Assembly (NCBI RefSeq): GCF_003014615.1
Contig: NZ_PYGI01000004.1
Span: forward strand, 1-64,000
Source: Marinobacterium halophilum
GTDB lineage: Bacteria > Pseudomonadota > Gammaproteobacteria > Pseudomonadales > Balneatricaceae
DNA: 64,000 bases
Direction: 5' to 3'
A model generated the notes under the pieces. The model searched no databases. It was given only the letters and a program-made list of their open reading frames with translations, and had not been told where the DNA came from. Below are positions 57,033 through 64,000 of this stretch, one piece after another (the stretch's first letter is position 1; every line of letters starts with the position of its first letter). Both the position numbers and the translations under genes were made by a program.

Positions 57033-58517
57033 ATGTTTAAACTGCGCAAATCTCCCCATTTACGCGAGCTGATCTACTTCAGCGTATTGGTCAGCATCAC
57101 CTTCGGATTGGTGATGTTGGGATTGAACACTCCCACGCAGCTGGAATCGATCCAGCAGAAGGGTGTGATCCGCTTCGCGACAACCAACACGCCGATGACC
57201 TACTATATCCGCAAGGGTGAACCTGTCGGCTTTGAGTACGAGCTGGCGCAGGCTTTTGCCGCACACCTGGGCGTGGAGCTGGAGCTGGCACTGCCGAGCA
57301 GCTTCGCCGGGTTGTTCAGCGTACTCGAAGAGCGCAATGCACACATTGCCGCCGCCAGCCTCACGGCTACCGCCGAGCGCCGTAAACGTTTCGACTTCTC
57401 ACCCGCCTATCGCAGCAGCGCACCAGTACTTATCTACCGAGTACGCCGCGGCAACCCTGCCCCCAAAACCATTGAGGATCTCTACGGCCGCTCGATCCGC
57501 GTACTGGCAGGCTCAAGCTATAATGAGCTGCTGCAACAACTGCATACACAACATCCCGCACTCGCGTGGTCCAGCAATGAAGACGACTCGGTCACCGACC
57601 TGCTTGACCTGGTTCACGACGGCAGCCTGGATTACACCATCCTTGATTCAACCGTGTTCGATGCGCAAAAGTCCTTTTATCCCGGCCTGAAAGCCGCCTT
57701 TGAATTGCAGTCTGCACAACCGATCGCGTGGATGCTCAACCGTCATCGCGACGGCACCCTGAAAAATGCCCTGAACCAATGGTTCAAGCTGGACAGCACC
57801 CAGGCTCTGATCAAGACACTGGAGGAGCGCTATTTCTCACGCACCAACCCACTCAACTTTTTCGACACCGTCACCTTCAGGCGCGACCTGCAGGAACGCT
57901 TTCTGCCACTCTATCCATGGTTCAAGCAGGCCGAAGAGGAAACCGGCATCAACTGGCTGCTACTGGCGGCTATCGCTTATCAGGAATCACACTGGAATGC
58001 AGACGCGGTTTCACCCACCGGCGTCAGGGGCATCATGATGCTGACCCAAGCGGCAGCCGAAGAAGTGGGCGTCAATGACCGCACCGACCCCAAAGAGAGT
58101 ATTCTGGGCGGCGCCCGCTATCTGGTGAACGTAAAGAAAAAGATACCCGATCGTATTACCGAACCCGACCACACCTGGTTTGCACTGGCGGGCTACAATG
58201 TTGGCTTTGGGCACTTGGAGGATGCACGCATCCTGACCCAGAAAGCCGGTAAAAACCCGGACAAGTGGCAGCACGTACGTGAATTTCTGCCGCGCCTGAG
58301 TAACGCAAAATACTATCCCCAGACCCGATACGGCTATGCACGCGGGCACGAGCCCGTTACCTACGTCAGCAACATCCGCAAGTATATAGAGTTGTTGCGC
58401 TGGGAAGTGGATACAGCCAGTGCCCGCGACGCCACCACTACACCCGAAACCGACAGCGACGCGGCAGAGGCGGAAACCCAACGCTTCCCGCTGAGCAACC
58501 TGCCCAGCTCACTCTGA
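57033..58517 (+). CDS. mltF: Membrane-bound lytic murein transglycosylase F
   Basis: A 494-residue protein: N-terminal membrane/signal segment, an extracellular solute-binding-like domain (about 45-275; GVIRFATTNTPMTYYIRKGE) and a goose-type SLT domain with catalytic Glu in IAYQESHWNADAVSPTGVRG. It cleaves peptidoglycan to anhydromuropeptides, feeding the recycling pathway in which mupP acts. The 3' end overlaps the tadA 3' end by 9 bp (convergent). Confidence 0.96.
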   Translation: MFKLRKSPHLRELIYFSVLVSITFGLVMLGLNTPTQLESIQQKGVIRFATTNTPMTYYIRKGEPVGFEYELAQAFAAHLGVELELALPSSFAGLFSVLEERNAHIAAASLTATAERRKRFDFSPAYRSSAPVLIYRVRRGNPAPKTIEDLYGRSIRVLAGSSYNELLQQLHTQHPALAWSSNEDDSVTDLLDLVHDGSLDYTILDSTVFDAQKSFYPGLKAAFELQSAQPIAWMLNRHRDGTLKNALNQWFKLDSTQALIKTLEERYFSRTNPLNFFDTVTFRRDLQERFLPLYPWFKQAEEETGINWLLLAAIAYQESHWNADAVSPTGVRGIMMLTQAAAEEVGVNDRTDPKESILGGARYLVNVKKKIPDRITEPDHTWFALAGYNVGFGHLEDARILTQKAGKNPDKWQHVREFLPRLSNAKYYPQTRYGYARGHEPVTYVSNIRKYIELLRWEVDTASARDATTTPETDSDAAEAETQRFPLSNLPSSL

Positions 58518-59006
58518 GGGTGGTAGCTGACGCTGCTGTTTCTGCTGCCGCTTGTGCTCACGACGACGGCGGAAGAAGTCACTGATCATGGTGGCGCAGT
58601 CATCCGCCAACACCCCACCTCGATAGTCAGGGCGATGATTGACCCATGGCTGATCAAACAGCTGCTGATTACTGACCAGTGCGCCCGCCTTGGGTTCTGT
58701 CGTGCCGAAGATCACCCGCTCGATCCGCGCATGCACAATCGCGCCCGCACACATGGTGCAGGGCTCAAGGGTGACATAGAGCTCAGCCCCCACCAGGCGG
58801 TAGTTCCCAACCTGGGCGGCGGCTTCACGCAGCGCCATGATCTCAGCATGAGCGGTCGGATCATGACCGCTGATCGGCCGGTTCCAGCCTTCGCCTATCA
58901 CCTGCCCATCGCGCACGATCACCGCACCGACCGGCACCTCGCCCAGGTCTGCCGCCTGCTGCGCCAATTGCAGCGCCCGCTGCATGTAAAACTGATCCTG
59001 CTCCAT
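58509..59006 (-). CDS. tadA: tRNA-specific adenosine deaminase
   Basis: Converts A34 to inosine in tRNA-Arg(ACG). A 165-residue zinc deaminase: TAHAEIMALREAA (His zinc ligand and catalytic Glu) and EPCTMCAGAIVHARI (Cys ligands). ATG at 59006 matches the family start; the basic Gln-rich tail is dispensable-looking. It follows a terminator that closes the accessory block. Confidence 0.96.
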   Translation of the reverse strand: MEQDQFYMQRALQLAQQAADLGEVPVGAVIVRDGQVIGEGWNRPISGHDPTAHAEIMALREAAAQVGNYRLVGAELYVTLEPCTMCAGAIVHARIERVIFGTTEPKAGALVSNQQLFDQPWVNHRPDYRGGVLADDCATMISDFFRRRREHKRQQKQQRQLPPSE

Positions 59007-59032
59007 CCTGTACCGCTCTATTTTCCACACAC

Positions 59033-59056
59033 GAAAAAGCCCGCAAACGCGGGCTT
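59033..59056 (-). terminator. Terminator upstream of tadA
   Basis: AAGCCCGC (59037-59044) and GCGGGCTT (59049-59056), 4-nt loop; leftward it is followed by a T-run (complement of the As at 59034-59038). It faces tadA and would end transcripts from the accessory block. Confidence 0.75.
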
Positions 59057-59284
59057 CTCAAACCGACAATCCTGACTCCCCAAGATCACCACTCAACGAC
59101 CAATGGACCCTTGATGGCCAGTATAGCCGGGGCTCACACGGCGACCAATAGCAGATGGCTCAAGCCAGCTTTATCTCTGCAGAATGCAGCTGACCGTACC
59201 ATAACGCACAGGCCTACACAGACCATCAGCTACTGCTGCAGTAATTACGCTATCTTCAGCAAGGGTCTCGTGATCATCAGACTA
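59057..59284. other. Intergenic DNA without a recognisable gene
   Basis: Between the terminator before tadA and the curA-like stop codon. I see no ORF with a ribosome site, no tRNA-like fold and no inverted repeat long enough to call. It marks the edge of the accessory block. Confidence 0.5.
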
Positions 59285-60346
59285 TTACTGTCCTTCTATG
59301 GACTGAACCAATTCGTCCGGGCCTACTCGCACCACCAGTTTGCCGAAGTTCTCCCCTTCTAGCAGGCCTCTCAGAGCATCCGGTACCTGCTCCAAACCCT
59401 CGATAATTTGCTCACGATATTGGATCGCGCCATCGGCTACCCATTTGCTCATATGCTCGGAAAATTCACCGTAGCAGTGACCATAATCATCGAAAATGAT
59501 AAAGCTCTGAACTCGAACTCGGCGAGTCTGCAGTGTTGACCAAGCCATATCCAAATGATCAGGCCCTTCAGGCAATTCGCTGGTATTGTAACCAGAAACA
59601 GTGCCGCACAGTGGTATACGGGCACAGAGGTTAAGCAGGGGCAGAACCGCCTTGAATACCTTGCCTCCCACGTTCTCAAAGTAAATATCAATGCCGCTGG
59701 GACACGCATCAGCCAGCTGCCGAGCAAAGTCCGTACTCTTGTGGTCCAAGGCCACATCGACCCCCATTGACTCCAGGTGCTGACGCTTTTGTTCGCCTCC
59801 GGCAATAGCGACCACTCTACACCCCATGATTTTGCCAATCTGCGCCACCGTCGCTCCTACCGGGCCAGTCGCCGCCGCCACTACCAGCGTCTCACCGGCC
59901 TTGGGCTGGCCGATATCCATCAACCCCATGTAGGCGGTAAAGCCCGGCATACCCAACACTCCCAATGCATGGGAAACAGGACCATAATCTGGATCGAGCT
60001 TGAACAGCATAGAGCCATCAGACACACCATAATCCTGCCAGCCCACCGTATAACTAACCACCCAATCCCCTTCCTTGTAGTCGGGATGCCTGGAGGCCAT
60101 CACACGGTTGACTGTGCCACCCACCATAACCTCACCGATGGCAACAGGCTCAGCATAGGACTCGGCATTACTCATACGACCACGCATATACGGATCAAGG
60201 CTCAGATACACGGTGCGCAACAGCATCTGGCCGTCTTCAATTTCCGGCACAGGACTTGTCTGGGCATGGAAGTTGTCTTTACCAGGCGCGCCCTCAGGCC
60301 GGGAAGCCAAAGTCAGCTGGCGGTTTTCGAATTGGTTTTGGGTCAT
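59285..60346 (-). CDS. curA: CurA-type NADP-dependent oxidoreductase (MDR superfamily)
   Basis: A 353-residue zinc-free medium-chain reductase of the leukotriene-B4 dehydrogenase/curcumin reductase branch, which reduces double bonds of enones and similar electrophiles with NADPH. N-terminal substrate motif LSLDPYMRGRM, cofactor motif VVAAATGPVGATVAQIGKI (AATGPVG), and YFENVGGKVF. A 16-bp operator lies about 110 bp upstream, identical to one by the NemR-like regulator that precedes it on the same strand. Together they look like an electrophile-detoxification unit. Confidence 0.88.
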   Translation of the reverse strand: MTQNQFENRQLTLASRPEGAPGKDNFHAQTSPVPEIEDGQMLLRTVYLSLDPYMRGRMSNAESYAEPVAIGEVMVGGTVNRVMASRHPDYKEGDWVVSYTVGWQDYGVSDGSMLFKLDPDYGPVSHALGVLGMPGFTAYMGLMDIGQPKAGETLVVAAATGPVGATVAQIGKIMGCRVVAIAGGEQKRQHLESMGVDVALDHKSTDFARQLADACPSGIDIYFENVGGKVFKAVLPLLNLCARIPLCGTVSGYNTSELPEGPDHLDMAWSTLQTRRVRVQSFIIFDDYGHCYGEFSEHMSKWVADGAIQYREQIIEGLEQVPDALRGLLEGENFGKLVVRVGPDELVQSIEGQ

Positions 60347-60454
60347 CGATCTAATCTCACAGTTAAAAGTGTATTAAAGACTGAAATTAAGGGCGTTATG
60401 CGCGAGCCTGCCGTCTATCGCCATATCCACTGATTGAAACACGACCCGAAAAAG

Positions 60455-60470
60455 TAGACCGGTCGTCTAG
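60455..60470. promoter_or_regulatory. NemR-type operator upstream of curA
   Basis: TAGACCGGTCGTCTAG, with TAGAC/GTCTA arms; identical to the site at 61092-61107. It lies 30 bp after the regulator's stop and about 110 bp before the reductase start. Confidence 0.75.
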
Positions 60471-60500
60471 AAAAAGGGCAAAAAAACGCCCACTCACAAT

Positions 60501-61070
60501 TCAGGTGCGGGCGAGCAATTGACGTGTCAGTTGCATGGCCTGCTTCATATGGCTCTGGTCCCGATTAAGCTTGCCCAGCAAGCCCGTTCCCAACCAGAGT
60601 TGATAAAGGTTAGTCGCTAGTAATTGACTATCCTGCTGAGGCAAGGAACCATCAGCAATGGCAACCTCTATCGCCAAAGCCAGGCGGCGGATGACCTGAT
60701 CAGTACCTTTCTTAAGCGTCAGGCGCATGGCATCGGATAAATCAGCCACCTCCGCACCCAGCTTGATCACCAGGCAATCACTATAGCTTTCTTGCCACTG
60801 GTCGAAATAATCCAACAGCAGACTCTGACCATCCTTTCCCTGCACGCCGAATAGCCTGTCCATCTCGGACCGGTATTGACTGAAATAGGATGCCAGCAAC
60901 GCTTCACCGAATTGCTCTTTGGACTGGAAATAGTGGTAAAAAGACCCCTTGGGCACACCTGCCTCTTTTAACAGCGTGCTGAGTCCAACCGAGCTAAACC
61001 CCTGGCACGACAGTATTTGTCGACCAATCTCCAGCAGATGCTCTTTGGTGTTTTCATGTCGGGTATTCAT
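60501..61070 (-). CDS. nemR: NemR-like TetR-family redox/electrophile sensor
   Basis: A 189-residue repressor with TetR helix-turn-helix (GLSTLLKEAGVPKGSFYHYF, about 30-49) and a ligand domain matching E. coli NemR closely (IKLGAEVADLSDAM; LYQLWLGTGLLGKL). E. coli NemR senses bleach and reactive carbonyls through Cys-106 paired with Lys-175. By my alignment these are Cys-99 and Lys-167 here, both present, while NemR Cys-116 is Ala. It precedes the curA-like gene on the same strand. Confidence 0.85.
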   Translation of the reverse strand: MNTRHENTKEHLLEIGRQILSCQGFSSVGLSTLLKEAGVPKGSFYHYFQSKEQFGEALLASYFSQYRSEMDRLFGVQGKDGQSLLLDYFDQWQESYSDCLVIKLGAEVADLSDAMRLTLKKGTDQVIRRLALAIEVAIADGSLPQQDSQLLATNLYQLWLGTGLLGKLNRDQSHMKQAMQLTRQLLART

Positions 61071-61091
61071 ACTGGCTAGTCTATAATCAAT

Positions 61092-61107
61092 TAGACCGGT
61101 CGTCTAG
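61092..61107. promoter_or_regulatory. NemR-type operator upstream of nemR
   Basis: TAGACCGGTCGTCTAG again, ending 22 bp before the regulator's start codon, suited to autorepression. Confidence 0.75.
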
Positions 61108-61138
61108 TTGTTTTACAGCTCCTTATCACTGGCACTCA

Positions 61139-62203
61139 TTACTCCGAAGCAGACTCGGCAAACTGCTGCCCCGCCAGATTCCTGACCGCCAACCAGTCCA
61201 GCTTCAACTGGTGAATAATACCTGTGATCATCGCCAACTCCTGCTCAAGCAACGGCATCTTCTCCAGGTCAAATGCCGATGCATTGATATCGGCCACCTC
61301 CATAAGGTCTCCAAAATAGGACAGCATGAACAATACTTTGTCACCTCGAAATTCGCAGGTAAGCCCAGAACCCTGTGCCCGCGCCCGGAACAACTCATCC
61401 AGCGCAATGATTCGCTCCATCATTGCTGGCGTCAGCAGGTAGCGCGCATATTGCTGATCCGACCCATAGACCTCATATCGTTTTTCAAAGTCGGGGTTTT
61501 CCAACGCGACACGGTCTCGCCTTAGCGGTGCCGACAACACATTACCGACCTTGCCATAATCCGCTTGCACCATCGTATAGCCACTGAACGTAAACGGCAT
61601 GGTAATCAGCAAGGCACCACCATCATGCACCGTGGTACTGGATTTACCGCTACCGCGCGTCAGGTCCAATTCACAAAACTCAAACATGACATCATCAACG
61701 ACACCACGAATATAGTCTTCGCTGGTCTTGCGGGAGTAGGACGGCATAATTTCGAACGACTCCACCGCTTTCAGGTCGATACAGCCACTCTCATCGTAAG
61801 TGTAATCGCCGAAAGCTTGCAACAAAACCGGCAGCAGCTTCTCCTTGTAGCGACGCATATATTGAACCTGGGGCCAAAATACCCACGTACCGCAGCCGAC
61901 AAACACAAACAGAGTGACTAATGACAGGTCGCCCGAGATAAGCGTGGCAATATCCAGCGCCAAAGCCGGCAACCAGAGCAACCAGCCCAGACGAATAAAC
62001 CAGGTCTTGCGCCTGTTTTTGCTGGCCAGCTTTTCCAGCCGATATTGCTCAAGCGGCTCCAGTAACGGCAAAACATCACGCTCTATAATTGCCCGAAACT
62101 CATCCGACAAAGGACCGCTCGCTTCGGGTTTACGGTAAGCCGTGCCATTGGTAAGCTGTTTGACGGCCTCGAATGCTTGGAAAAAGGTTCTCAGCAAACT
62201 CAT
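61139..62203 (-). CDS. DUF3137 membrane protein
   Basis: A 354-residue protein with two adjacent membrane segments near residue 72-110 (LGWLLWLPALALDIATLI, SLVTLFVFVGCGTWVFW) and a large C-terminal soluble domain typical of DUF3137 (PSYSRKTSEDYIRGVVDDV, FSGYTMVQADYGKVG). Function is unknown; family members commonly follow lemA. Its start overlaps the lemA stop by 4 bp (ATGA), so the two are coupled. Confidence 0.85.
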   Translation of the reverse strand: MSLLRTFFQAFEAVKQLTNGTAYRKPEASGPLSDEFRAIIERDVLPLLEPLEQYRLEKLASKNRRKTWFIRLGWLLWLPALALDIATLISGDLSLVTLFVFVGCGTWVFWPQVQYMRRYKEKLLPVLLQAFGDYTYDESGCIDLKAVESFEIMPSYSRKTSEDYIRGVVDDVMFEFCELDLTRGSGKSSTTVHDGGALLITMPFTFSGYTMVQADYGKVGNVLSAPLRRDRVALENPDFEKRYEVYGSDQQYARYLLTPAMMERIIALDELFRARAQGSGLTCEFRGDKVLFMLSYFGDLMEVADINASAFDLEKMPLLEQELAMITGIIHQLKLDWLAVRNLAGQQFAESASE

Positions 62204-62772
62204 GATTTAAGAAAATCATCAGCGTTTATGGGTGCCCGGTCCGTCTCCGCGACCTCAAAAAACGGCATGGATTTCACCCCCATTGCAGCTGCAATCAACG
62301 TACCAGGAAAGATTGTGATCGCATCCTTTAAACGACGTGCTGCCGCATTATAGCTGCGTCGCGCAGCAGAAATATGCTCTTCCACATCCGCATATACTCG
62401 CTGAGCCTCAGCCATATTTTCTTGGGATTTTAGCTCGGGATAATTTTCGACCGCGACCATCAAGCCTGAGAGCTTCCCTTCCAAAGCCCCTTCCAACTCA
62501 AACCGCTTTTCCGCATCCACACGATCAGATGACTCCGCCGCCTTGAGCACCTCGGTTCGCAAGCGAGTAACCTCGGTCAACAATGACTGCTCATGCTCCA
62601 TGAAGCGCGAGGCTATCTTCAAAATATTGGGAATCAGATCGGTGCGTTTTTTCAGCTGAACATCAATGCCTGAAAACGCTTCTTCAGCCGCATTGCGGCG
62701 AGACACTATAGTGGCGTACCAGAAATAGAACAGCAGCAAGACAGCGACAACAGCCGCGATGAGCCAACTCAT
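62200..62772 (-). CDS. lemA: LemA family protein
   Basis: A 190-residue LemA protein: one N-terminal membrane helix (WLIAAVVAVLLLFYFWYA), then a long helical bundle with RRNAAEEAFSGIDVQLKKR, RTDLIPNILKIASRFMEHE and YNAAARRLKDAI. ATG at 62772 has AAGGATG upstream; an earlier in-frame start adds 11 residues before the membrane helix. Function unclear in bacteria. It lies upstream of the DUF3137 gene and after the guaA terminator. Confidence 0.93.
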   Translation of the reverse strand: MSWLIAAVVAVLLLFYFWYATIVSRRNAAEEAFSGIDVQLKKRTDLIPNILKIASRFMEHEQSLLTEVTRLRTEVLKAAESSDRVDAEKRFELEGALEGKLSGLMVAVENYPELKSQENMAEAQRVYADVEEHISAARRSYNAAARRLKDAITIFPGTLIAAAMGVKSMPFFEVAETDRAPINADDFLKS

Positions 62773-62888
62773 GACAACATCCTTGTTCAGATGGGTGAAG
62801 GACATACAAGACTAGAGCCTGCACCAAAATGGTGTCAAGTTCTTTGCACAGACCCTCTACCCAACTATTTTTCTCACCACGCAGATAC

Positions 62889-62913
62889 AAAAAAGCCCAT
62901 GATTTCACGGGCT
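62889..62913 (-). terminator. Terminator of guaA
   Basis: On the minus strand AGCCCGTG and its partner (62906-62913 and 62894-62902, one G-U pair) form a stem followed by six T. It lies 44 bp after the guaA stop. Confidence 0.75.
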
Positions 62914-62957
62914 TTTTAAGTTCATCGCAGCCTTAATAAGGTGCTTTTAATGACGCA

Positions 62958-64000
62958 TCATTCCCACTCAATCGTGGCCGGCGGCTTGCTGGATACGTCG
63001 TAGGTCACACGCGAGACCTTGGCAACCTCATTGATGATACGGCCGGAAACGGTTTCCAGCAGTTCATACGGCAGGTGCGCCCAGCGTGCGGTCATGAAGT
63101 CGATGGTTTCAACGGCACGCAGTGCAATAACGTACTCGTAGCGACGACCATCACCCACAACACCGACCGATTTCACCGGCAGGAATACGGCAAATGCCTG
63201 GCTGGTCTTGTGGTACCAGTCAGCCTTGTGCAGCTCTTCGATGAAGATCGCATCCGCTTCACGCAGGATATCGGCGTACTCTTTCTTCACTTCGCCGAGG
63301 ATACGTACACCCAGACCTGGGCCCGGGAACGGATGACGGTAGACCATGTCATACGGCAGACCCAGCTCCAGACCGATCTTGCGCACTTCATCCTTGAACA
63401 GCTCGCGCAGCGGCTCGACCAAATCGAACTTCATGTCTTCCGGCAAGCCACCCACGTTGTGATGCGACTTGATGACGTGCGCCTTGCCGGTTTTGGATGC
63501 GGCAGACTCGATTACGTCCGGGTAGATGGTGCCCTGCGCCAGGAAGCGGCAATCCTGCAGCTTTTCTGACTCATCATCGAACACTTCAATGAAGGTGTTA
63601 CCGATAATTTTACGCTTGGCTTCCGGGTCCGCTTCACCTTTCAAGCGGCCCAGGAACTGGTCTTCAGCGTTAACACGGATCACGTTCACGCCCATGTTGC
63701 GGGCAAACATCTCCATGACCTGAGTGCCTTCAGCCTTGCGCAGCAAGCCATTATCCACAAACACGCAGGTCAGCTTGTCACCGATCGCCTTGTGCAGCAG
63801 TGCTGCTACAACCGAAGAGTCGACACCACCGGACAGACCCAGCAACACCTTCTCATCACCCACCTGACGCTGAACTTTCTCGATCAGATCCTGAATGATA
63901 TTGGCAGCCGTCCACAAACCATCAGTACCGCACATCTCGCGTACGAAACGCTCAAGAATACGCAGGCCCTGTTTGGTATGGGTCACTTCCGGGTGGAACT
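62958..64000 (-). CDS. guaA: GMP synthase (glutamine-hydrolysing), C-terminal two-thirds
   Basis: Converts XMP to GMP. The visible part begins in the glutaminase domain ([11 protein letters not shown], with the catalytic His-Pro-Glu) and continues with the ATP-pyrophosphatase domain ([17 protein letters not shown]) and the dimerisation domain ([16 protein letters not shown]), ending PATIEWE. The 5' end lies beyond 64000. Pseudomonas has guaA next to tadA; here four accessory genes lie between. Confidence 0.98.

Follow-up and report, generated by a model that had tools for sequence, protein, structure and literature searches.

A CurR-CurA-like gene pair with two copies of a TAGAC-N5-GTCTA operator in Marinobacterium halophilum

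Introduction

In Pseudomonas aeruginosa, the gene pair PA2196-PA2197 has been named CurR-CurA (Duang-Nkern et al., 2024, Gene 927:148754, listed by PMC12239554 and PMC12838394), and the title of that paper describes CurR as a TetR-family repressor of curA that senses NaOCl and N-ethylmaleimide. For NemR, the accounts in PMC5297802 and PMC7464077 assign the electrophile response to Cys-21 and Cys-116, and the bleach response to Cys-106 with Lys-175. Hypocrates, a sensor based on NemR, is described in PMC8748444 as retaining its NaOCl response when Lys-175 was replaced by Ala. A further relative of NemR, AltR of Pantoea ananatis, answers thiosulfinates and not other oxidizers, as described in PMC13178969. 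For the PA14 NemR homologue PA14_36300, PMC7950407 reports neither induction by HOCl nor a consistent HOCl phenotype of the mutant, and notes that induction had been found by an earlier study. Here we describe a gene pair of this kind in Marinobacterium halophilum, in a stretch of 64,000 nucleotides that is called the window below.

Results and Discussion

Gene Pair and Its Closest Relatives

The locus consists of two genes and three elements outside them, listed here in the direction of transcription:

61092..61106, minus strand: operator 1, TAGACGACCGGTCTA in gene direction; begins 36 nt upstream of the curR start codon; identical to operator 2; kept in homologues
60501..61070, minus strand: curR-like gene, TetR-family repressor of 189 aa (Pfam TetR_N and TetR_C_13)
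60476..60491, minus strand: terminator-like hairpin of 5 pairs with a T run; lies after the curR stop and ahead of operator 2
60455..60469, minus strand: operator 2, the same 15-mer as operator 1; 31 nt past the curR stop; begins about 123 nt upstream of the curA start
59285..60346, minus strand: curA-like gene, NADPH-dependent curcumin/dihydrocurcumin reductase family, 353 aa (NCBIfam NF058644)

The curR-like gene (61070 to 60501) is followed on the same strand by the curA-like gene (60346 to 59285) after a gap of 154 bp. The first-pass annotation had placed a NemR-like regulator beside a CurA-like reductase, and both open reading frames are indeed present. The enzyme scored 537 bits against the NCBIfam CurA model NF058644, above the curated cut-off of 440, and is the only protein of the genome over that cut-off; its closest relatives of solved structure are 5zxn/5zxu, and activity on curcumin or dihydrocurcumin with NADPH is predicted from its family membership. 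The regulator matched the CurR model NF058643 over its full length with 238 bits, below the curated cut-off of 300, and it is CurR-like in the broad sense that it belongs to the TetR family, adjoins curA and has TAGAC-N5-GTCTA upstream. Its top relatives of solved structure were 3rd3 (185 bits) and 4l62 (182 bits), which we take to be P. aeruginosa PA2196, followed by 3knw and then by NemR itself (4yze, 119 bits); the label NemR-like is thus right as to kinship, but the nearer relatives lie elsewhere. The nearest named proteins are those of Marinobacterium stanieri (80% identity) and M. marinum (76%).

Judged by these families, the closest known system is CurR-CurA of P. aeruginosa rather than nemRA-gloA of E. 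coli. The regulator and enzyme families are the same in the two species, although the regulator of the window falls under the CurR equivalog cut-off; the likeness was judged by the families and by the 2024 title. The first-pass annotation set the target apart from nemA and gloA, but CurA is not a new target, because PA2196-PA2197 already bears the name CurR-CurA. With E. coli NemR, the regulator shares 38% identity, TAGAC/GTCTA half-sites, equivalents of Cys-106 and Lys-175, and a site directly ahead of its own gene. In contrast, the E. coli operator TAGACCGACTGGTCTA has 16 bp with a 6-bp spacer, whereas that of the window has 15 bp with a 5-bp spacer; one operator was found in the 4-kb E. coli nemR locus and two are found here; and NemR targets an old yellow enzyme and gloA, whereas the regulator of the window adjoins curA, with no linked nemA or gloA. 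AltR, as described in PMC13178969, is likewise a NemR relative with one key cysteine, and its binding boxes lie one ahead of its own gene and one elsewhere in its cluster, but it differs in its operator (CAATCTAC-N6-GTAGATTG), in its specificity for thiosulfinates and in its gene cluster.

From these data, we consider that the locus is very probably (roughly 85%) a CurR-CurA-type electrophile-response cassette, in which the repressor acts on both sites and Cys-99 is the sensor. A dimer of the CurR-like protein would occupy TAGAC-N5-GTCTA before curR and before curA and repress both genes. Electrophiles or oxidants would modify Cys-99, the equivalent of NemR Cys-106, and release the repressor from DNA, whereupon CurA would be made and, with NADPH, would reduce the activated double bonds of reactive carbonyl compounds; autoregulation of curR would then reset the switch. 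Control of curR-curA by electrophiles or bleach is likely at this locus, judging from sequence, and the inducer is not readable from the family because the NemR relative AltR is thiosulfinate-specific. Several points speak against the cassette, namely the CurR score under the cut-off, the absence of a detected promoter, the missing equivalents of NemR Cys-21 and Cys-116, and the HOCl data for PA14_36300, which is presumably PA2196. As an example of a switch type that has already been described, the pair is sound but ordinary; with it, CurR-CurA now reaches into a marine genus.

Candidate Sensor Residues

For comparison with homologues, 93 loci were entered into a script and, after the removal of identical proteins, 88 distinct regulators remained, which are not independent rows, Undibacterium and Acinetobacter being over-represented. 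The loci left out of the 93 were L039 and L040 (same matches as L011 and L010), the duplicates L120, L124 and L125, and 25 weaker or partial loci (L092-L118 except L104 and L106), together with weaker matches.

In the alignment, Cys-99 corresponds to NemR Cys-106 and Lys-167 to NemR Lys-175, so that the Cys/Lys equivalence proposed at first pass was correct. The regulator has cysteines at positions 22 and 99 and no others. Cys-99 is conserved in 88 of the 88 homologues and Lys-167 in 84 (the remainder being two Arg, one Gly and one gap). Unlike NemR, which has Cys-21 and Cys-116, the regulator has Leu-20 and Ala-109 at these positions, and a cysteine stands at the Cys-116 position in 6/88 homologues and at the Cys-21 position in 1/88. 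The Cys-99 equivalent is also found in L013 and L090, the two most distant members of a 12-sequence alignment, which we take to be AcuR-like. The description of the regulator as a NemR-like redox switch is therefore upheld only in part: Cys-99 and Lys-167 are kept, but the Cys-21/Cys-116 pair is absent, and the Cys/Lys pair is weak evidence for a bleach switch because Cys-99 is invariant even in distant outliers and a NemR-based sensor with Lys changed to Ala still responded to NaOCl.

These residues bear on one alternative, a dedicated NemR-type bleach sensor that works through a sulfenamide between Cys-99 and Lys-167. Both residues are present and hypochlorite is among the CurR signals named in the 2024 title (Duang-Nkern et al., 2024), but the NaOCl response of the Lys-to-Ala NemR sensor (PMC8748444), the failure of HOCl to induce the PA14 homologue in one study (PMC7950407) and the lack of a bleach-specific target at the locus make this a doubtful explanation. 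The natural absence of Cys-21 and Cys-116 offers a clean case for asking whether the single conserved cysteine is enough for both electrophiles and bleach.

Operators and Transcription Units Across Homologues

An exact TAGAC/GTCTA pair was found upstream of the regulator in 64/88 homologues, with a 5-bp spacer in 62 and a 6-bp spacer in 2, the latter being E. coli nemR (L119) and an uncultured member of Enterobacteriaceae (L088). When all 1024 five-base arms were combined with five spacers (5120 motifs) and scanned as palindromes in the 88 upstream windows, TAGAC-N5-GTCTA ranked first with 62/88, and the next motif reached 12. The misses include the Acinetobacter loci with one decayed arm (AATACGACTGGTCTA), plus a few loci with no site; the degenerate Acinetobacter sites, mostly with 2 mismatches, were scored as misses. 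Exact sites both before and after the regulator occurred in 44/88 homologues, and the doubled operator is thus the usual arrangement in the family.

The two sites raise the question of how the genes are transcribed. They could form a single operon in which operator 2 merely tunes read-through, as the common strand and the 154-bp gap would allow; the hairpin of the window is short, with 5 pairs, and weak when taken alone, the hairpin scan of the region having found 2 against 2.3 expected. However, of the 48 loci where site 2 is exact, 27 have a terminator-like hairpin and T run ahead of it, downstream of the regulator stop (2.0 in mononucleotide shuffles), and curA is divergent at some homologous loci, which renders the single operon unlikely. 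Because the doubled operator is usual and the hairpin precedes site 2 at 27/48 loci, the comparison suggests that two separately transcribed, co-repressed units best explain the arrangement. A scan of the region for sigma-70-like promoters found none. Judged by eye, the left arm of the operator could act as a -35 element ahead of curR, and no equivalent reading was seen for curA.

Among L069-L087, which are mostly Acinetobacter (not L074 and L085), most of the Acinetobacter loci have curA and the regulator in divergent orientation. The operator shared by these divergent genes has one decayed arm (AATACGACTGGTCTA), and sites elsewhere are near-perfect.

Target Enzymes Across the Family

Twenty neighbour genes at 18 homologous loci, picked out of 36 open reading frames at 25 loci, were classified with Pfam as CurA-type reductase, old yellow enzyme, iron alcohol dehydrogenase, DJ-1/PfpI, nitroreductase and zinc-type dehydrogenase. 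A distance rule gave labels to 74 of the 88 regulators: old yellow enzyme (30), CurA (19), DJ-1 (11), iron alcohol dehydrogenase (10), zinc-type dehydrogenase (3, two of which are based on 24-26% identity) and nitroreductase (1). The other 14 had no target by this rule and were omitted from the tree of 74 rows. Of the 19/88 regulators adjoining curA, 8 are in tandem with it and 11 divergent. The six labels require at least 16 changes on the tree, against a minimum of 5 and a mean of 38.7 for shuffled labels, a count that is soft, given the weak support of deep branches and the length of some others. These values show that the labels are clustered and yet repeatedly switched among regulators. 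The regulator of the window joins two congeners with support of 100/100, all three having CurA.

The comparison suggests that the sensor and the DNA site stay constant and the detoxifying enzyme is swapped. We lean slightly towards a joint reading in which a fixed module, an invariant cysteine and a near-constant 15-bp site before regulator and target, has repeatedly changed partners in Pseudomonadota among the six kinds of unrelated, electrophile-clearing enzymes named above, and in which the regulator of the window senses by its single conserved cysteine, without the Cys-21/Cys-116 pair of NemR. On this reading, the 15-bp site would be of use for marking electrophile regulons in genomes.

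The same data bear on the possibility that a specific non-covalent ligand, such as an unsaturated carbonyl reduced by CurA, brings about derepression, and that Cys-99 is structural and does not sense. Most TetR-family repressors are ligand binders, and the Cys-99 equivalents in the outliers L013 and L090 indicate that this residue may not be specific to sensors of bleach or electrophiles. Nevertheless, the NemR-family members whose responses have been measured use a conserved cysteine (NemR Cys-106 and AltR Cys-100, as described in PMC5297802, PMC7464077 and PMC13178969) and the targets across the family resemble electrophile-handling enzymes, so we regard a purely ligand-driven switch as improbable beside the electrophile-response cassette.

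Specificity of the Operator in the Genome

The first-pass annotation had reported the same 16-bp operator before each gene and had proposed a genome search for further copies. The 16-mer TAGACCGGTCGTCTAG is exact at 60455-60470 and 61092-61107. In the window, no further place within 3 mismatches of it was found; shuffles gave 0.25 expected matches at ≤ 3 mismatches, and a count of two was reached in 1 of 100. In the 3.65-Mb genome, the same 2 copies were exact, no site had 1-2 mismatches, and 6 sites had 3 mismatches, all six inside open stretches of 558-2065 nt; a scan with a backward control pattern yielded 31 per strand. The twin 16-mers are thus real, but the symmetrical element within them is of 15 bp, TAGAC-N5-GTCTA (plus strand TAGAC-CGGTC-GTCTA), and this version is exact nowhere in the genome except at these two sites. 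The operator is thereby corrected to a searchable 15-bp element. Given the window shuffles and the scan of all five-base palindromes, a chance origin of the operator is untenable. The view of the locus as a compact, self-contained cassette agrees with an operator before each gene and with exact matches confined to the locus.

Genomic Setting and Other Sites

The cassette occupies a variable slot between housekeeping genes, because the insert between guaA and tadA is absent or reordered among congeners. The order guaA, lemA, DUF3137, curR, curA, tadA is found at 58509-63986 of the window and again in M. stanieri (L040). In one relative (L039/L187), curR-curA stands on the opposite side of the lemA-DUF3137 pair, i.e., in swapped order, and in three of the eight genomes of the genus (L186, L188 and L189) guaA and tadA adjoin, with neither curR-curA nor lemA-DUF3137. 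A close curR (≥ 75%) is present in 3/8 genomes of the genus, and a fourth has a 51% relative at a different place, beside a zinc-type dehydrogenase.

Outside the locus, the 4-kb surroundings of the best NemA homologue of the genome (49%, contig C15) held no operator-like site closer than 2 mismatches. A search with the 16-bp NemR-like pattern gave two zero-mismatch sites (C10 and C15), which were not assigned to CurR, their spacing being different and their position off the locus. The sequence CAGACCGACTGGTCTG (L153:492-507; G000:C15:4152-4167) differs from the E. coli NemR operator at two bases. The genes that flank it, named by eye, apparently encode a short-chain dehydrogenase and, in divergent orientation, an alpha/beta hydrolase. 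The site lies about 1 kb before an old-yellow-enzyme-type reductase, and is probably the site of another TetR regulator. The sequence TAGACCGATTTGTCTA (G000:C6:121363-121378) lies just ahead of a TetR-like coding stretch (C6:121439-121714, with one TAA inside the match), and its position suggests that other TetR regulators in this genome use similar half-sites.
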